Assembly (NCBI GenBank): GCA_024403035.1
Contig: JAKSSP010000003.1
Span: forward strand, 62,001 to 126,000
Reading direction: 5' to 3'
Length of the DNA: 64,000 nt
Source: Mogibacterium sp.
GTDB taxonomy: Bacteria > Bacillota > Clostridia > Peptostreptococcales > Anaerovoracaceae
In this document: in pieces, positions 4,037 to 9,480 of the stretch
Position numbering within the stretch: position 1 is the stretch's first letter
Layout: the number at the start of each line of letters is the position of its first letter
Notes under the pieces: model-generated
Database searches by the model: none
Told to the model about the DNA's origin: nothing
What the model saw: the letters and a program-made list of their open reading frames with translations, nothing else
Translations under genes and position numbers: made by a program

Positions 4037-4135
4037 TGTACACAAAATCGGGCTCAAAATTTGAGTTTTTTCACAAAAAGTGTTGACACAAAATCTTCAC
4101 AATGCTATCATCGCACTGTACACAAAACCTGTACA
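4037..4135 (+). promoter_or_regulatory. liv operon promoter with repeated TGTACA boxes
   Basis: -35 TTGACA (4083-4088), 17-bp spacer, -10 TATCAT (4106-4111) preceded by TGC, giving an expected start near 4118. TGTACA occurs at 4037, 4117 and 4130, and a related TGTTGACACAAAA overlaps the -35. Three of these four copies continue as ACAAAA. The boxes flank and overlap the transcription start, as expected for a repressor site (inference). The factor is unknown. The transcript would carry about 270 nt of leader before livJ. Confidence 0.75.
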
Positions 4136-4152
4136 CTAGAAAGGGAGATCAA

Positions 4153-4239
4153 ATGTACTTTAGTTCAAGCCTTATCGTAATCGGCATTATCAGCGTCCTT
4201 CTGGTCGTAAGACTGGTAGAGGGCGATGTTCTGCTGTAG
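4153..4239 (+). CDS. Leader peptide of the branched-chain amino acid transport operon (28 aa)
   Basis: A 28-codon ORF starting MYFSSSLIVIGIIS, with RBS AAAGGGAG at good spacing. Sixteen of 28 residues are Leu, Ile or Val. It lies between the liv promoter and a terminator-like hairpin, upstream of a branched-chain amino acid transporter. Its last codons and stop (CTG CTG TAG) overlap the 5' arm of a predicted antiterminator. This is the layout of ribosome-mediated attenuation as known for ilv and leu operons. The alternative is a free-standing small membrane protein, since the same residues would form a transmembrane helix. Confidence 0.7.
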   Translation: MYFSSSLIVIGIISVLLVVRLVEGDVLL

Positions 4240-4305
4240 GGCGATAAAGTTCAAGAGGTCAACTTAAACCTTATGCTTGGAAGCCCGCAGCGATGCGGGC
4301 TTATT
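4233..4305 (+). promoter_or_regulatory. Predicted transcription attenuator (antiterminator/terminator switch) before livJ
   Basis: Terminator: AAGCCCGCA (4281-4289) pairs with TGCGGGCTT (4294-4302) around a GCGA tetraloop, followed by ATT. Competing antiterminator: GCTGT-A-GGGC (4233-4242) pairs with GCCCGCAGC (4283-4291), nine pairs including one G-U and one bulged A. The 5' antiterminator arm overlaps the leader stop codon. A ribosome finishing the leader would mask it and allow termination, while one stalled on Leu/Ile/Val codons would free it. The T-run is weak, so termination efficiency is uncertain. Confidence 0.65.
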
Positions 4306-4386
4306 AAATGCCCGGCTAAGAGAACAGGCAACTATCAACTATCACTCAGTCAGATTTCTACATCTAGAGAGAAAGGGAGAATCAAA

Positions 4387-5559
4387 ATGAAAAAGAATTG
4401 GAAAAAAGCCGTAGTTGTAGCAGTCTCCTGCATGATGGTCTTCATGCTTGCAGCCTGCGGTGGCGGTGGCGGAAGCAGCGATGCAGGAGATAACGTTCTG
4501 AAGTTAGGCTGCACAGGCCCTCTCACAGGACCGGCTGCTATCTATGGTAATGCTGTAAAGAACGGCGGCCAGATCGCGGTTGATGAAATCAACGCAGCAA
4601 ACGCTGACGGCGTCCAGGTCGCATGGCAGGTCGAGGACGACGAAGCTGACGGCGAGAAGGCTGTAAACGCTTACAACAAGCTTATGGATGACGGAATGCA
4701 GGTCTTTGTAGGTTCCGTAACATCCGGAGCCTGCGTAGCTGTAGCAGAGAAGACGAATGCTGACAGAGTATTCGAACTCACACCATCCGCTTCACAGGCA
4801 GCTGTAACAGAGGGTAAGGACAATGTATTCCAGCTCTGCTTCAGAGACCCTGATCAGGGTACTATCTCTGCTGACTACATCATGGAAAACTTCCCGGATG
4901 CAAAAGTAGGAGTTATCTACAACAACGCAAGTGACTACTCTGCAGGAATCTTCGACGGATTCAAGAAAGAGTTCGAAGCAAAGGGTAAAGAGATCGTAGC
5001 AGTTGAGGCATTCGCTGATGACGCCAACACTGACTTCCAGGCTCAGCTCAACAGCATGAAGAACGCAGGCGCAGACTTTGTCTTCCTGCCAAACTACTAC
5101 ACACCTGTATCCAACATCCTCGTTCAGGCTGACAAGATGGGATATGCTCCGACATTCTTCGGATGTGACGGCGTTGACGGCATCCTGACACTTGAAGGAT
5201 TCGATACAAGCCTGGCAGAGGGAGTATACCTCCTGACACCGTTCACAGCATCTGCTGAGGATGAGAAGACTCAGAACTTCGTAAAGGCTTACATGGACGC
5301 TTACGGTGAAGAGCCTAACCAGTTCGCAGCTGACGCTTATGACTGCGTATATGCTTGCTACAATGCATTCAAAGAGACAGGCCTTGAGACAAGCGCATCT
5401 GCAGCTGATATCTGCGAGGCTATGGTAGCACAGTTCACAGGCGGATTCTCATACGAAGGACTTACCGCTGCCAATGCGATGAAGTGGCAGGCTACCGGCG
5501 AAGTTGACAAGATGCCGGCAGTATACGTCATCGAGGGCGGAAAGTACGTTGAGAAGTAA
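4387..5559 (+). CDS. livJ: Branched-chain amino acid ABC transporter, substrate-binding lipoprotein
   Basis: 390 residues. Start chosen at ATG 4387 (MKKNWKKAV) because it has RBS AAAGGGAG and begins a lipoprotein signal peptide ending in LAAC. A longer in-frame start at 4273 would run through the terminator hairpin. The mature protein is a type I periplasmic-binding fold of the Leu/Ile/Val family (LKLGCTGPLTGPAAIYGNA at its N-terminus). It captures substrate at the outer membrane face and delivers it to LivH/LivM. First structural gene of the liv operon. Actual ligand specificity cannot be read from sequence. Confidence 0.95.
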   Translation: MKKNWKKAVVVAVSCMMVFMLAACGGGGGSSDAGDNVLKLGCTGPLTGPAAIYGNAVKNGGQIAVDEINAANADGVQVAWQVEDDEADGEKAVNAYNKLMDDGMQVFVGSVTSGACVAVAEKTNADRVFELTPSASQAAVTEGKDNVFQLCFRDPDQGTISADYIMENFPDAKVGVIYNNASDYSAGIFDGFKKEFEAKGKEIVAVEAFADDANTDFQAQLNSMKNAGADFVFLPNYYTPVSNILVQADKMGYAPTFFGCDGVDGILTLEGFDTSLAEGVYLLTPFTASAEDEKTQNFVKAYMDAYGEEPNQFAADAYDCVYACYNAFKETGLETSASAADICEAMVAQFTGGFSYEGLTAANAMKWQATGEVDKMPAVYVIEGGKYVEK

Positions 5560-5673: not shown

Positions 5674-6558
5674 ATGATTTTTTTGACTAACCTCATCTCA
5701 GGTCTCAGCCTGGGAAGCGTATACGCGATAATAGCGCTTGGATATACCATGGTCTACGGTATTTCCAAGATGCTCAATTTTGCGCACGGCGATGTTATTA
5801 TGATCGGCGGATACATGTCGTTCATCATGACGATGTATATGGGGCTGAATGGATGGCTGGCTCTTCTGGTCGCAATGGTCATATGCACGATCCTCGGTAT
5901 CACTATCGAGAGACTCGCGTACAGACCGCTCAGAGGAACCGGCTCTTTGGCTGTTCTGATTACGGCCATTGGTGTGTCATACTTTCTGCAGAACATCGCT
6001 CTTCTGATTTGGGGCGCAAACCCTAAGATGTTCACGAGCCTGTTCAACGGAATGAAACCGATCCACGCGATGGACGGACAGCTGACCATCACTCCGGAGT
6101 CGATCTTCACGATCCTCGCCAATATCATAATAATGATCCTGCTGACACTTTTTGTCAGCAAAACAAAGGCCGGCAAGGCAATGAGAGCTGTCTCCGAAGA
6201 CAACGGAGCTGCCCAGCTGATGGGTATCAACGTGAACCAGTCCATTTCGCTGACATTTGCCATTGGATCCGGCCTTGCTGCTGTAGCGGGAGTTCTGATG
6301 CTTTCAGCTTATCCGGTACTTATGCCTACCACGGGCGCGATGCCGGGCATAAAGGCATTCACAGCTGCCGTATTCGGCGGCATCGGTTCCATCCCGGGAG
6401 CCATGATAGGCGGACTCATCCTTGGGATCATCGAGATATTCTCAAGAGCATATATCTCAACGGAACTCTCTGACGCCATCGTTTTCGCATGCCTGATCAT
6501 CGTGCTTCTGGTCAAGCCTACGGGCTTGCTGGGCAAGAAGATCAGTGAGAAAGTGTAG
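5674..6558 (+). CDS. livH: Branched-chain amino acid ABC transporter permease LivH
   Basis: 294 residues with about eight hydrophobic helices. The N-terminus SLGSVYAIIALGYTMVYGI and the later GSIPGAMIGGLILGIIE are typical of LivH. It forms the membrane channel with LivM. RBS AAGAGAGAAA lies upstream of ATG 5674. The gene ends 7 bp before livM, so the two are co-translated. Confidence 0.95.
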   Translation: MIFLTNLISGLSLGSVYAIIALGYTMVYGISKMLNFAHGDVIMIGGYMSFIMTMYMGLNGWLALLVAMVICTILGITIERLAYRPLRGTGSLAVLITAIGVSYFLQNIALLIWGANPKMFTSLFNGMKPIHAMDGQLTITPESIFTILANIIIMILLTLFVSKTKAGKAMRAVSEDNGAAQLMGINVNQSISLTFAIGSGLAAVAGVLMLSAYPVLMPTTGAMPGIKAFTAAVFGGIGSIPGAMIGGLILGIIEIFSRAYISTELSDAIVFACLIIVLLVKPTGLLGKKISEKV

Positions 6559-6565
6559 GTGAGCC

Positions 6566-7699
6566 ATGGCGGAGAGAATACTTAAAAATATACGCATCGG
6601 AGGACTTAAAAACGCAGTAAAGGGAAATGACTACCGAAAGGAAGCCACCATTTCTTACTGCATCCTCATAGGCGGATACATACTGCTTCAGATCCTCACG
6701 GCGGCCGGACTGGTCGGTCACAATTTGCAGGGACAGTTCGTACCTATCTGCGTGTATATATCACTGGCGGTATCGCTCAACCTGGTCGTTGGGATCTCGG
6801 GCGAACTGTCACTCGGACATGCAGGATTTATGGCGGTCGGAGCGTTCAGCGGCATACTTATGTCTCGCATACTGCTGCAAAGCATGTCATTCGAACCGGC
6901 CATCCTGATCATATCAATGCTTTTCGGAGCGCTGATGGCGTCGGTCGCAGGATTCATAATCGGGATACCGATCCTTGGCCTGCGCGGAGATTATCTGGCG
7001 ATAGTGACACTCGCATTCGGCGAGATCATCAGAAACTTCATGAACGTCCTGTATTTTGGCTTTGTTGACGGGAAACTCAGATTCGCGTTCAACCACACCA
7101 TAGAGGGCATCGAAGATACTGACCGTATCATTACCGGAGCAATCGGAGCGACAGGAACAAAGACGATGGCTTCATTTACCTGGGGATTGCTGCTGTGCCT
7201 CTTCACGGTATTCATCGTTCTCAATCTTAAAAACTCCAAACAGGGGCGTGCGATCATGTCCATCAGAGACAACCGCATCGCGGGCGAGTCTATCGGACTG
7301 GACGTCAGAAAATATAAACTGATGGCATTTGTCGTAAGCGCCGCTCTCGCGGGAATGGCAGGCTGCCTGTTTGGACTCAACTACAGCACGCTCGTACCGG
7401 TCAAGTTCAACTTCAATACTTCGGTACTCGTTCTGGTCTTTGTCGTGCTTGGCGGAGTAGGCAACATCTGGGGCGGCATCATCGCCGCGACACTGCTGAC
7501 GATACTGCCTGAGACATTCAGACAGTTTGCGGACTACAGAATGCTGACCTATGCCATCGTATTGATCCTTGTTATGATCGGCACTTATAACCCGGCCATC
7601 AAGTCGAGGATGAACGCTTTATTTGCAAAGTTCAAGCCTAAGAAAAAGAAGGACGACGGCAAAGTAAAAAAGAAAAAAAGCGGAAAGGAGGAGGCATAG
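6566..7699 (+). CDS. livM: Branched-chain amino acid ABC transporter permease LivM
   Basis: 377 residues. Multiple membrane helices with the LivM signatures SLAVSLNLVVGISGELSLGH and LRGDYLAIVTLAFGEIIRN. The C-terminus carries an unusually lysine-rich cytoplasmic tail of about 25 residues not needed for the LivM fold. The stop codon abuts the livG start at 7700. Confidence 0.95.
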   Translation: MAERILKNIRIGGLKNAVKGNDYRKEATISYCILIGGYILLQILTAAGLVGHNLQGQFVPICVYISLAVSLNLVVGISGELSLGHAGFMAVGAFSGILMSRILLQSMSFEPAILIISMLFGALMASVAGFIIGIPILGLRGDYLAIVTLAFGEIIRNFMNVLYFGFVDGKLRFAFNHTIEGIEDTDRIITGAIGATGTKTMASFTWGLLLCLFTVFIVLNLKNSKQGRAIMSIRDNRIAGESIGLDVRKYKLMAFVVSAALAGMAGCLFGLNYSTLVPVKFNFNTSVLVLVFVVLGGVGNIWGGIIAATLLTILPETFRQFADYRMLTYAIVLILVMIGTYNPAIKSRMNALFAKFKPKKKKDDGKVKKKKSGKEEA

Positions 7700-8770
7700 A
7701 TGGCAGATAAGAAAGACAAGCGCGAAGAGCTTATGGACATCGATATCTCCGATCCCGGACACGCTTATGAAAACAGGCAGGAGATCTACTACAACGACAA
7801 CGTAGGCGGACGTGCCGTCTTCGTTGACTCAAAAGAGCAGTATGATCCCGATGAGCCATACAATGACCAGGTCTATATCCCTGAGAAGGACAGAGACAAG
7901 GCGCCTATACTCGAGGTAAAGGGTCTGGGCATAGATTTCGGCGGACTGACCGCTGTGGATAATTTCAATCTGACACTCGGCAGAACGGAGATAGGCGGAC
8001 TCATCGGTCCAAACGGCGCCGGCAAGACCACCATCTTCAACATGCTCACAAAGGTGTACGAGCCAACAAGAGGAGAGATCTTCTTCGACGGTAAGAGCAC
8101 CAAGGGCATGAATACCGTAGATATCAACAAGGCCGGAATGGCGCGTACGTTCCAGAACATCAGGCTTTTTGACAAGCTCACCGTAGAGGAGAACATCAAG
8201 GTGGCTCTCCATCACACTACCAACTACGGCCTGATCGACGGAATGCTGCACACACCGAAGTACAGACACGAGGAATTCCGTATCCGCAAGGAAGCGATGA
8301 AATACCTCAAGATCTTCGGCATGACCAAGACCGCCGACTACAGAGCGGGATCGCTCCCGTACGGAGCTCAGAGGAGACTCGAGATCATGAGAGCGCTCGC
8401 CACAAAGCCAAAACTGCTTCTTCTTGATGAGCCTGCGGCCGGAATGAACCCGTCTGAAACGACCGAGCTGATGGACACCATCAGGGAGATCCGCGACAGA
8501 TTCCAGATCGGCATCTTCCTTATCGAGCATGACATGAGTCTTGTAATGGGCATCTGCGAAGGCATCGTGGTGCTCAACTACGGCAGAGTCATCGCAAAGG
8601 GCTGGCCTGAAGACATCCAGAGCAACCCTAAGGTAATCGAGGCTTACCTCGGAAAGAGCCGCGGAAAGATGGAGGAAGAAGAGAAGAAAGAGGATATCGA
8701 AGACGCTCTCAAAAAGGGCAAGCTCGAATCCGCTCCTTCCGGCAAGCCTGACAGAAAGGAGGGTGAATGA
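7700..8770 (+). CDS. livG: Branched-chain amino acid ABC transporter ATP-binding protein LivG, with N- and C-terminal extensions
   Basis: 356 residues against about 255 usual for LivG. The ATPase core starts near residue 70 and has Walker A GPNGAGKTT, signature SLPYGAQRRLEI and Walker B LLLLDEPAAG. The extra length is an acidic, tyrosine-rich N-terminal stretch of about 65 residues and a charged C-terminal tail of about 35. Neither resembles a domain I know. RBS AAAGGAGGAGG overlaps the livM end. The stop overlaps the livF start (ATGA). Confidence 0.93.
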   Translation: MADKKDKREELMDIDISDPGHAYENRQEIYYNDNVGGRAVFVDSKEQYDPDEPYNDQVYIPEKDRDKAPILEVKGLGIDFGGLTAVDNFNLTLGRTEIGGLIGPNGAGKTTIFNMLTKVYEPTRGEIFFDGKSTKGMNTVDINKAGMARTFQNIRLFDKLTVEENIKVALHHTTNYGLIDGMLHTPKYRHEEFRIRKEAMKYLKIFGMTKTADYRAGSLPYGAQRRLEIMRALATKPKLLLLDEPAAGMNPSETTELMDTIREIRDRFQIGIFLIEHDMSLVMGICEGIVVLNYGRVIAKGWPEDIQSNPKVIEAYLGKSRGKMEEEEKKEDIEDALKKGKLESAPSGKPDRKEGE

Positions 8771-9480
8771 TGGGTACAGTACTTACAGTTGACAACATCA
8801 ACGTTTACTACGGAGCCATCCACGCCCTCAAGGGCATATCGCTCGATGTAAACAGAGGCGAGATCGTAACGCTTATCGGAGCCAACGGCGCCGGCAAGTC
8901 GACGACCCTGCACACCATTTCCGGACTGCTCCGCAGCAAGACAGGCGATATCGAGTTTCTTGAGAGCTCAATTGCCCACGTGCCAGCTCATAAGATAGTC
9001 GCAATGGGCATCTCGCACGTTCCTGAAGGCAGGCGTATATTCCAGGGCCTGACCGTGGAAGAGAATCTGCAGATGGGAGCTTTCGTAACAAAGAAGGACC
9101 GTATCGCTCATAACCTTGAGTATGTATATGACCAGTTCCCGAGACTCAAGGAGAGGACCTCGCAGATAGCGGGCACACTCTCCGGCGGAGAGCAGCAGAT
9201 GCTGGCCATGGGAAGAGCGCTGATGTCCGACCCGGAGCTGCTGATGCTGGATGAGCCGTCAATGGGACTTGCTCCTATCCTTGTTGACCAGATCTTTGAT
9301 ATCATCAAGAACCTCAACAAGGCCGGCACTACCATCCTTCTGGTAGAGCAGAACGCGCAGATGGCGCTTTCCGTAGCCGACAGGGCATACGTTATCGAGA
9401 CGGGACGCATTACCCTCTCCGGCACGGGCAAGGAACTTGCTCAATCCGAAGAGGTCAAAAAAGCGTACCTGGGCGGCTAA
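8767..9480 (+). CDS. livF: Branched-chain amino acid ABC transporter ATP-binding protein LivF
   Basis: 237 residues, the normal LivF length. Walker A GANGAGKST, signature LSGGEQQML and Walker B LLMLDEPSMG are intact. It pairs with LivG as the ATPase dimer of the importer. Two adjacent ATG codons (8767 and 8770) follow the RBS AAAGGAGGG. The first overlaps the livG stop by four bases. Last gene of the operon, with a terminator at 9501. Confidence 0.95.
   Translation: MMGTVLTVDNINVYYGAIHALKGISLDVNRGEIVTLIGANGAGKSTTLHTISGLLRSKTGDIEFLESSIAHVPAHKIVAMGISHVPEGRRIFQGLTVEENLQMGAFVTKKDRIAHNLEYVYDQFPRLKERTSQIAGTLSGGEQQMLAMGRALMSDPELLMLDEPSMGLAPILVDQIFDIIKNLNKAGTTILLVEQNAQMALSVADRAYVIETGRITLSGTGKELAQSEEVKKAYLGG

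Follow-up and report, generated by a model that had tools for sequence, protein, structure and literature searches.

The window, by which we mean the whole 64,000-nucleotide stretch of Mogibacterium sp. DNA that we analyzed, belongs to a genome assembly of 1.46 Mb that is 77% complete. Downstream of an adenine-phosphoribosyltransferase-like gene, it carries a promoter, a short leader open reading frame (ORF), a GC-rich hairpin (4281 to 4302), and then livJ, livH, livM, livG, and livF, in that order. The features used in the analysis are as follows.

4083 to 4111, plus strand: sigma-70-type promoter, TTGACA-17-TATCAT with TG ahead of the -10 element (11/12 consensus matches)
4142 to 4147, plus strand: leader Shine-Dalgarno sequence AGGGAG (from the sequence)
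4153 to 4239, plus strand: leader ORF of 28 codons, from ATG at 4153 to the stop codon TAG, ending at 4239 (from the sequence; kept in the genus)
4154 to 4160, plus strand: tentative outer protector helix, UGUACUU at the start codon with 4247 to 4253 (RNAalifold)
4174 to 4185, plus strand: segment 1 (codons 8 to 11), protector helix with 4233 to 4245 (swap test, 0/5000; halves with 83% and 96% of cells paired)
4194 to 4225, plus strand: pause-type hairpin GUCCUUCUGGUC-GUAA-GACUGGUAGAGGGC within the ORF (94% of cells paired)
4233 to 4245, plus strand: segment 2, antiterminator 5' arm GCTGTAGGGC (4233 to 4242), overlapping the stop codon
4281 to 4302, plus strand: terminator-like hairpin AAGCCCGCA-GCGA-TGCGGGCTT, 9 bp, with a weak U-run after it (97.3% of cells paired)
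4283 to 4291, plus strand: segment 3, antiterminator 3' arm and terminator 5' arm in one, GCCCGCAGC (97.9% of cells paired)
4334 to 4353, plus strand: conserved 20-mer ATCAACTATCACTCAGTCAG, between the hairpin and the livJ ribosome-binding site (at most 2 mismatches in 24/39 genus leaders)
4387 to 5559, plus strand: livJ, branched-chain amino acid binding protein, ATG at 4387 (PF13458; Leu/Ile/Val-binding structures)
5674 to 6558, plus strand: livH, permease (best NCBIfam model LivH, below cut-off)
6566 to 7699, plus strand: livM, permease (best NCBIfam model LivM, below cut-off)
7700 to 8770, plus strand: livG, ATPase (best NCBIfam model LivG, below cut-off)
8767 to 9480, plus strand: livF, ATPase (best NCBIfam model LivF, below cut-off)

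An earlier note on this DNA had called the promoter strong, which its consensus matches and its TG ahead of the -10 element bear out, and the promoter is retained in most rows of the relatives' alignment. A recount of the leader peptide (MYFSSSLIVIGIISVLLVVRLVEGDVLL, 28 amino acids) gave the same 16 Leu, Ile, or Val residues that had been reported (6 Leu, 4 Ile, and 6 Val), 13 of which lie in codons 7 to 22; most relatives have an AGGAG-like Shine-Dalgarno sequence ahead of the ORF. Read from the sequence, this is a Shine-Dalgarno-led short ORF after a promoter, rich in codons for the presumptive amino acids of the operon, as in ribosome-mediated amino acid attenuators. When 113 gene-upstream regions from the window and loci L032 to L060 were scanned for such a leader, 11 matched and 102 did not, and all 11 precede livJ genes of the same genus. 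The stretch from 4083 to 4400 had a folding z score of -2.57. Among solved Leu/Ile/Val-binding proteins, the best match of LivJ was 4gnr (E, 1.6e-42), and its closest relatives in named records are from Mogibacterium and from Clostridiales metagenome-assembled genomes, several of them from goat or sheep gut. All NCBIfam liv models scored below their curated cut-offs on the liv genes of the window.

The leader is widespread in the genus. Positions 4150 to 4320, used as a DNA query, matched 37/47 genus genomes, the window's own genome counted, with G034 matching just by the 3' third of the leader at a contig end. Diverged leaders precede livJ in G013, G028, and G062. Among the genomes without a leader match, we saw no close livJ in G005, G011, G032, or G060; the livJ contig of G035 ends 135 bases upstream of the gene, and G061 and G066 also belong to this group. 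An automatic filter found the leader at 28/32 same-genus livJ loci, the four misses being three contig ends and a subthreshold leader in L022. We aligned 39 genus leaders (37 distinct rows), each of which directly precedes livJ in the same sense (29 loci were fetched through livJ and 10 were checked separately). Outside this alignment were L004, L013, L031, and L077, where contigs end inside or before the leader; the second copies L123 and L124; contig-end fragments on G018 C120 and G014 C69; L032 to L041 and L044, which are the same genomes under named records; and G062 (L114 and L121), found later. The leader peptides of the genus are 24 to 35 residues long. In codons 7 to 22, 12 of the 13 Leu/Ile/Val positions stay Leu, Ile, or Val in at least 33 of the 39 peptides, and position 19 does so in 21; of 507 alignment cells with a Leu/Ile/Val consensus, 54 change within this class and 34 outside it. 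The earlier note had said that a lack of conservation of the ORF or hairpins in relatives would refute it; both are conserved, in 37/47 genomes at the DNA level. One genome, G006, has a leader of the main-clade type (L016, on C47) with a livJ 68% identical to that of the window and a second leader (L124) on C84, a combination that may reflect either recombination or contamination.

The leader RNA can form helices that exclude one another. The antiterminator, GCTGTAGGGC:GCCCGCAGC, has nine pairs with one bulged A and a predicted energy of -16.7 kcal/mol, close to the -16.0 of the hairpin at 4281 to 4302. Since segment 3 (4283 to 4291) belongs to both, the antiterminator and the terminator-like hairpin are mutually exclusive, and the competition with a GC-rich, GCGA-loop hairpin described in the earlier note is confirmed. 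The antiterminator 5' arm at 4233 to 4242 overlaps the stop codon TAG, also as described. The covariation check that had been proposed, run on the relatives, showed that pairing is preserved in all four helices, some of the changes being compensatory. With kinship among the sequences ignored, the protector, pause, and terminator helices together had 93.0% of cells paired and two-sided changes at 8/32 pairs (shuffles, 2.1; standard deviation, 1.2), and the antiterminator had 97.9% of cells paired and such changes at 2/9 pairs (shuffles, 0.2; standard deviation, 0.5). Slid-register controls also gave 4 to 8 two-sided pairs, but with just 35 to 55% of cells paired. Swapping partners between species weakened every helix on average, and of 5,000 permutations, 0 matched the native pairing of the protector, 4 that of the pause hairpin, 4 that of the terminator, and 30 that of the antiterminator, kinship again being ignored. 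RNAalifold, unaided, recovered the terminator, most of the pause hairpin, the inner protector, and a helix joining the start codon region to the GAGUACA that follows the stop codon; it did not pick the outer protector part AUCGUC:GGCGAU. The partner of the outer protector helix at 4247 to 4253 reads GAGUACA in many relatives, and 87% of its cells are paired, yet its covariation was not above that of shuffles, so we keep this helix as tentative.

Individual relatives illustrate how the pairing is kept. In L025, GCUGUAGGGC:GCCCGCAGC is rewritten to AUGCAGG:CCUGCAU, with the terminator changed to match. In L090, Val18 and Leu21 have become Leu and Val, and the pause stem GUC:GAC has become CUC:GAG, so that both the codon class and the pairing survive. 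The ORFs of L089 and L090 end earlier, and the GCTGTAGGGC arm persists as RNA past the stop codon. The ORF, the helices, their conservation, and their competition are all properties that these computations establish.

We folded RNAs ending after segment 3 under a ribosome-sized mask. For the window RNA, the probability of the antiterminator was 0.95 to 0.99 with the A site at codons 3 to 22 and 0.00 at codons 26 to 29. Under this constraint the position of the ribosome decides the fold, and the geometry gives the logic that the earlier note had stated, for RNA folded to segment 3. In 31/39 genus leaders, the mean antiterminator probability was over 0.3 higher with the ribosome stalled than with it at the stop, and only 24/39 passed both thresholds (above 0.5 when stalled and below 0.2 at the stop). 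The antiterminator probability remained 0.43 to 0.50 with a ribosome at the stop in L025, L026, L028, and L030, and the stalled value was below 0.30 in L005, L018, L019, and L074. Without translation, it was below 0.2 in 34/39 genus leaders; in the untranslated window sequence, the antiterminator was not suppressed (0.80 or 0.38, with different RNA starts and averaging). In the complete window leader at equilibrium, the terminator had a probability of 0.77 to 0.98 in every ribosome state. Since the terminator wins on the complete RNA whatever the ribosome does, the switch must be kinetic and depend on folding order: the antiterminator would have to form first and persist while the polymerase passes, as is assumed for attenuators generally.

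The leader is very probably a ribosome-mediated attenuator of the livJHMGF branched-chain amino acid importer operon. This reading, put forward in the earlier note, is supported by the conserved elements, by covariation, and by leaders of the same design in seven other genera. Translation, stalling, folding order, termination, and the starvation response would combine as follows. RNA polymerase would start a few bases after the -10 element, at about 4118, and a ribosome would begin the leader ORF. With Leu-, Ile-, or Val-tRNA in short supply, the ribosome would stall at one of the 13 codons within codons 7 to 22, where it would cover segment 1 or the pause hairpin and leave segment 2 free. Free segment 2 (4233 to 4242) would then pair with segment 3 (4283 to 4291) once the latter is made, the terminator-like hairpin would come too late, and the importer would be transcribed. 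With amino acids plentiful, a ribosome at the stop codon would cover segment 2, the hairpin at 4281 to 4302 would form, and transcription would end. With no ribosome, segment 1 would pair with segment 2, which in most relatives would prevent the antiterminator from forming.

The hairpin itself departs from a canonical intrinsic terminator. In the window it is stable and GC rich; directly after it stands CTTATTAAATG, which is not a proper U-run, and a terminator scan made no call at 4281 to 4302. The earlier note had placed a terminator just before livJ: the hairpin is there, but it ends 84 bases before livJ and has no canonical U-run. Hairpins of the genus are typically followed by UUAUUAAA or a similar sequence, and that of L088 is followed by GAATTTAA. 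Leader-peptide sensing might be the same as in the attenuator reading, with a hairpin that needs a factor (NusG/NusA or Rho) or that acts on RNA processing or stability. We consider this somewhat unlikely, and since it is a variant of the attenuator reading, our confidence in the one overlaps with that in the other. The weak, interrupted U-run, the A-U pairs at the hairpin base, and the G-poor conserved 20-mer downstream speak for this variant. According to PMC8060035, NusG-dependent terminators of Bacillus subtilis combine A-U or G-U pairing at the base of the hairpin with an interrupted U-tract, TTNTTT being the motif that NusG contacts; the first two of these features are also seen in the leader hairpin. 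However, strong U-runs occur at the same place in several outgroup leaders (L130, TTTTTTT; L136, TTTTCTTTTT; L138, TTTTTT) and in the diverged genus members L023 and L025, which makes intrinsic termination look ancestral. We sought a role for the 20-mer and found none; even with as many as 3 mismatches allowed, the window's genome has just one copy of it. Between the terminator-like hairpin and livJ, L010, L016, L021, and L015 carry extra insertions, some of them hairpin-like.

Candidate attenuators before livJ extend past the genus. We searched 393 genomes of the order with a covariance model of the leader and obtained matches in 31, 25 of them in the genus and 6 outside it; among the latter, we judged G386 and three g66 genomes to be real. 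Two were rejected: the match in G307 (L120) lacks both a Leu/Ile/Val-rich ORF and livJ, and that in G195 (L125) is an ordinary terminator after another gene. A LivJ search of 247 family genomes gave 46 at an E value of at most 1e-50, 39 of them from other genera, from which we took 38 livJ upstream regions in 14 genera (G436, whose livJ begins at contig base 9, was left out). A filter for Shine-Dalgarno-led ORFs of 15 to 70 codons that have 9 or more Leu/Ile/Val in 14 was positive for 21/38 of these genes in 7 genera, against 4/1900 dinucleotide shuffles of the same regions: 7/7 in g66, 7/7 in g51, 2/2 in g40, 2/3 in g35, 1/1 in g83, 1/1 in g171, and 1/2 in g167, where the miss had just 151 upstream bases to search. 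The other 17/38 regions gave no leader by this filter, including those of g48 (5), g58 (4), g33 (2), and g62, g169, g176, and g38 (1 each), nor did any of 14 outgroup livJ loci.

We tested 23 leaders from outside the alignment (the 21 filter-positive ones plus L114 and L115, with L130 to L132 and L143 to L144 being near-duplicates). In 13/23, the complementarity between stop region and terminator arm was reached by at most 14/300 shuffles; in 10/23 it was not significant. The rewritten antiterminators include GUUGUGAG:CUCGCAAC in L136 (g83), GAUUGGGUA:UACUCAAUC in L142, and GAGCAGA:UCUGCUC in L140; the pairing AGUAGGGC:GCCCUGCU in L138 was not significant (48/300 shuffles). Strong U-runs follow many hairpins of these 23 leaders. 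In the folding test, the stalled value exceeded the stop value by more than 0.3 in 13/23, only 7/23 passed both thresholds, and L143, L144, L151, and L152 showed no discrimination.

These relatives also bear on whether the ORF might instead encode a working small membrane peptide, such as a partner of the importer, with the RNA pairing incidental. The peptide is strongly conserved within the genus, and a hydrophobic stretch of 28 residues could cross a membrane. However, peptides of the other genera have composition in common and little sequence, L089 and L090 lose the 3' end of the ORF while the RNA arm persists, and the codon changes of L090 preserve the RNA pairing, so we regard a membrane peptide as very improbable. 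T-boxes regulate many amino acid genes in Firmicutes, but there is next to no chance that the leader is a T-box or another known riboswitch: the window has no Rfam 15 match at gathering score, the surroundings of the leader gave one chance-level match at an E value of at most 10, on the opposite strand, and an RF00230 search of its own, incomplete genome found no T-box. These results speak against every riboswitch family in Rfam 15 and leave only an undescribed aptamer as a candidate. Rfam over the loci of 39 relatives gave a single T-box, which lies on the opposite strand of L134.

The attenuator reading is set in a particular amino acid context. T-boxes numbered 0 to 3 per genome in 36 genus genomes versus 7 to 26 in 24 genomes of the order's other families, a comparison made with stricter search filters and with genus genomes that are generally less complete; counts were 0 to 11 across 89 family genomes. 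Above its cut-off, ilvC was present in 31/47 genus genomes; it was found neither in the window's genome (77% complete) nor in G024 (97% complete), which suggests branched-chain amino acid auxotrophy, and import may there be the sole source of these amino acids. We inspected three ilv operons of the genus: G003 and G021 yielded no leader, and the ilvB-ilvC-ilvD-leu operon of G069 has its own, different Leu/Ile/Val-rich leader, MLISTFTELILSANIIILGLLILIGREDSAECCARD (L170, 5868 to 5978). In G386, a class III aminotransferase gene is preceded by a second branched-chain leader (L115, 326 to 503), which has an antiterminator UGCGGAU:AUCCGCA and a T-rich terminator.

Regulation of the liv genes of Escherichia coli has been the subject of older papers. 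The enterobacterial ilv and leu attenuators work by the same segment 1 to 4 logic as that proposed for the liv leader, and their terminators have a long U-run, unlike the hairpin of the window. The earlier note had placed branched-chain leader attenuation in enterobacterial biosynthetic operons, which is correct; it is also known from Firmicutes ilv-leu operons, so that what looks new is just the target, a liv importer. The leader thus joins a well-known attenuator class with what looks like a new kind of target. In the open full-text literature, we found no description of a branched-chain leader before a liv importer, although the 205 attenuator candidates before ABC-transporter genes of Naville and Gautheret (PMC2965389) could include one.

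Branched-chain leader attenuators precede biosynthetic genes in Lactococcus lactis, Corynebacterium glutamicum, and Streptococcus (PMC6123439). The enterobacterial ilvGMEDA, ilvBN, and leu operons also have multivalent branched-chain leaders (that of ilvGMEDA has 32 amino acids, 15 of them such residues) but are biosynthetic (PMC6123439). The ilvD leader of Staphylococcus aureus (PMC5794164) and Rli60 of Listeria monocytogenes (PMC5864092) likewise combine a branched-chain-rich ORF with an antiterminator/terminator pair that opens the operon on starvation; they control biosynthesis, whereas the leader described here belongs to a different Firmicute lineage and precedes an ABC importer, and the Rli60 peptide has 13 residues versus 28 here (PMC5864092). 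Candidates before ilvB operons of Actinobacteria and leuS of Streptomyces similarly have short ORFs with Ile/Val/Leu runs before terminator hairpins, but they belong to biosynthesis or tRNA-synthetase genes of another phylum (PMC1262725). Histidine leaders stand, like the liv leader, where T-boxes are usual, before hisZ and hisS in bacilli (PMC2965389) and, in Peptostreptococcaceae and other groups, before his operons (PMC9413887), with histidine as the amino acid instead. The attenuator table rows of PMC9413887 name his operons, and its discussion names a T-box, an attenuator, or both as controlling the his operon, the hisZYX transporter, or both, a wording under which an attenuator of a His importer is possible. 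Ribosome-mediated attenuation before an ABC transporter also occurs at bmrCD of B. subtilis, which, unlike the liv operon, encodes a multidrug transporter answering antibiotics and not amino acid starvation (PMC4191407).

More broadly, we tentatively raise the possibility that a whole T-box-poor family uses leader-peptide attenuators to govern its import of branched-chain amino acids, keeping the design as the sequences of leader and arms change from genus to genus, and that the terminator of this genus, its U-run lost, needs an accessory factor to work, perhaps together with the conserved 20-mer. If the attenuator reading is true, leader-peptide attenuation would reach beyond amino acid synthesis to the high-affinity importers of gut Clostridia, the leader codons may serve as a sequence mark for the substrate in a transporter family with varied substrates, and this would be a lineage that combines such leaders with a scarcity of T-boxes.
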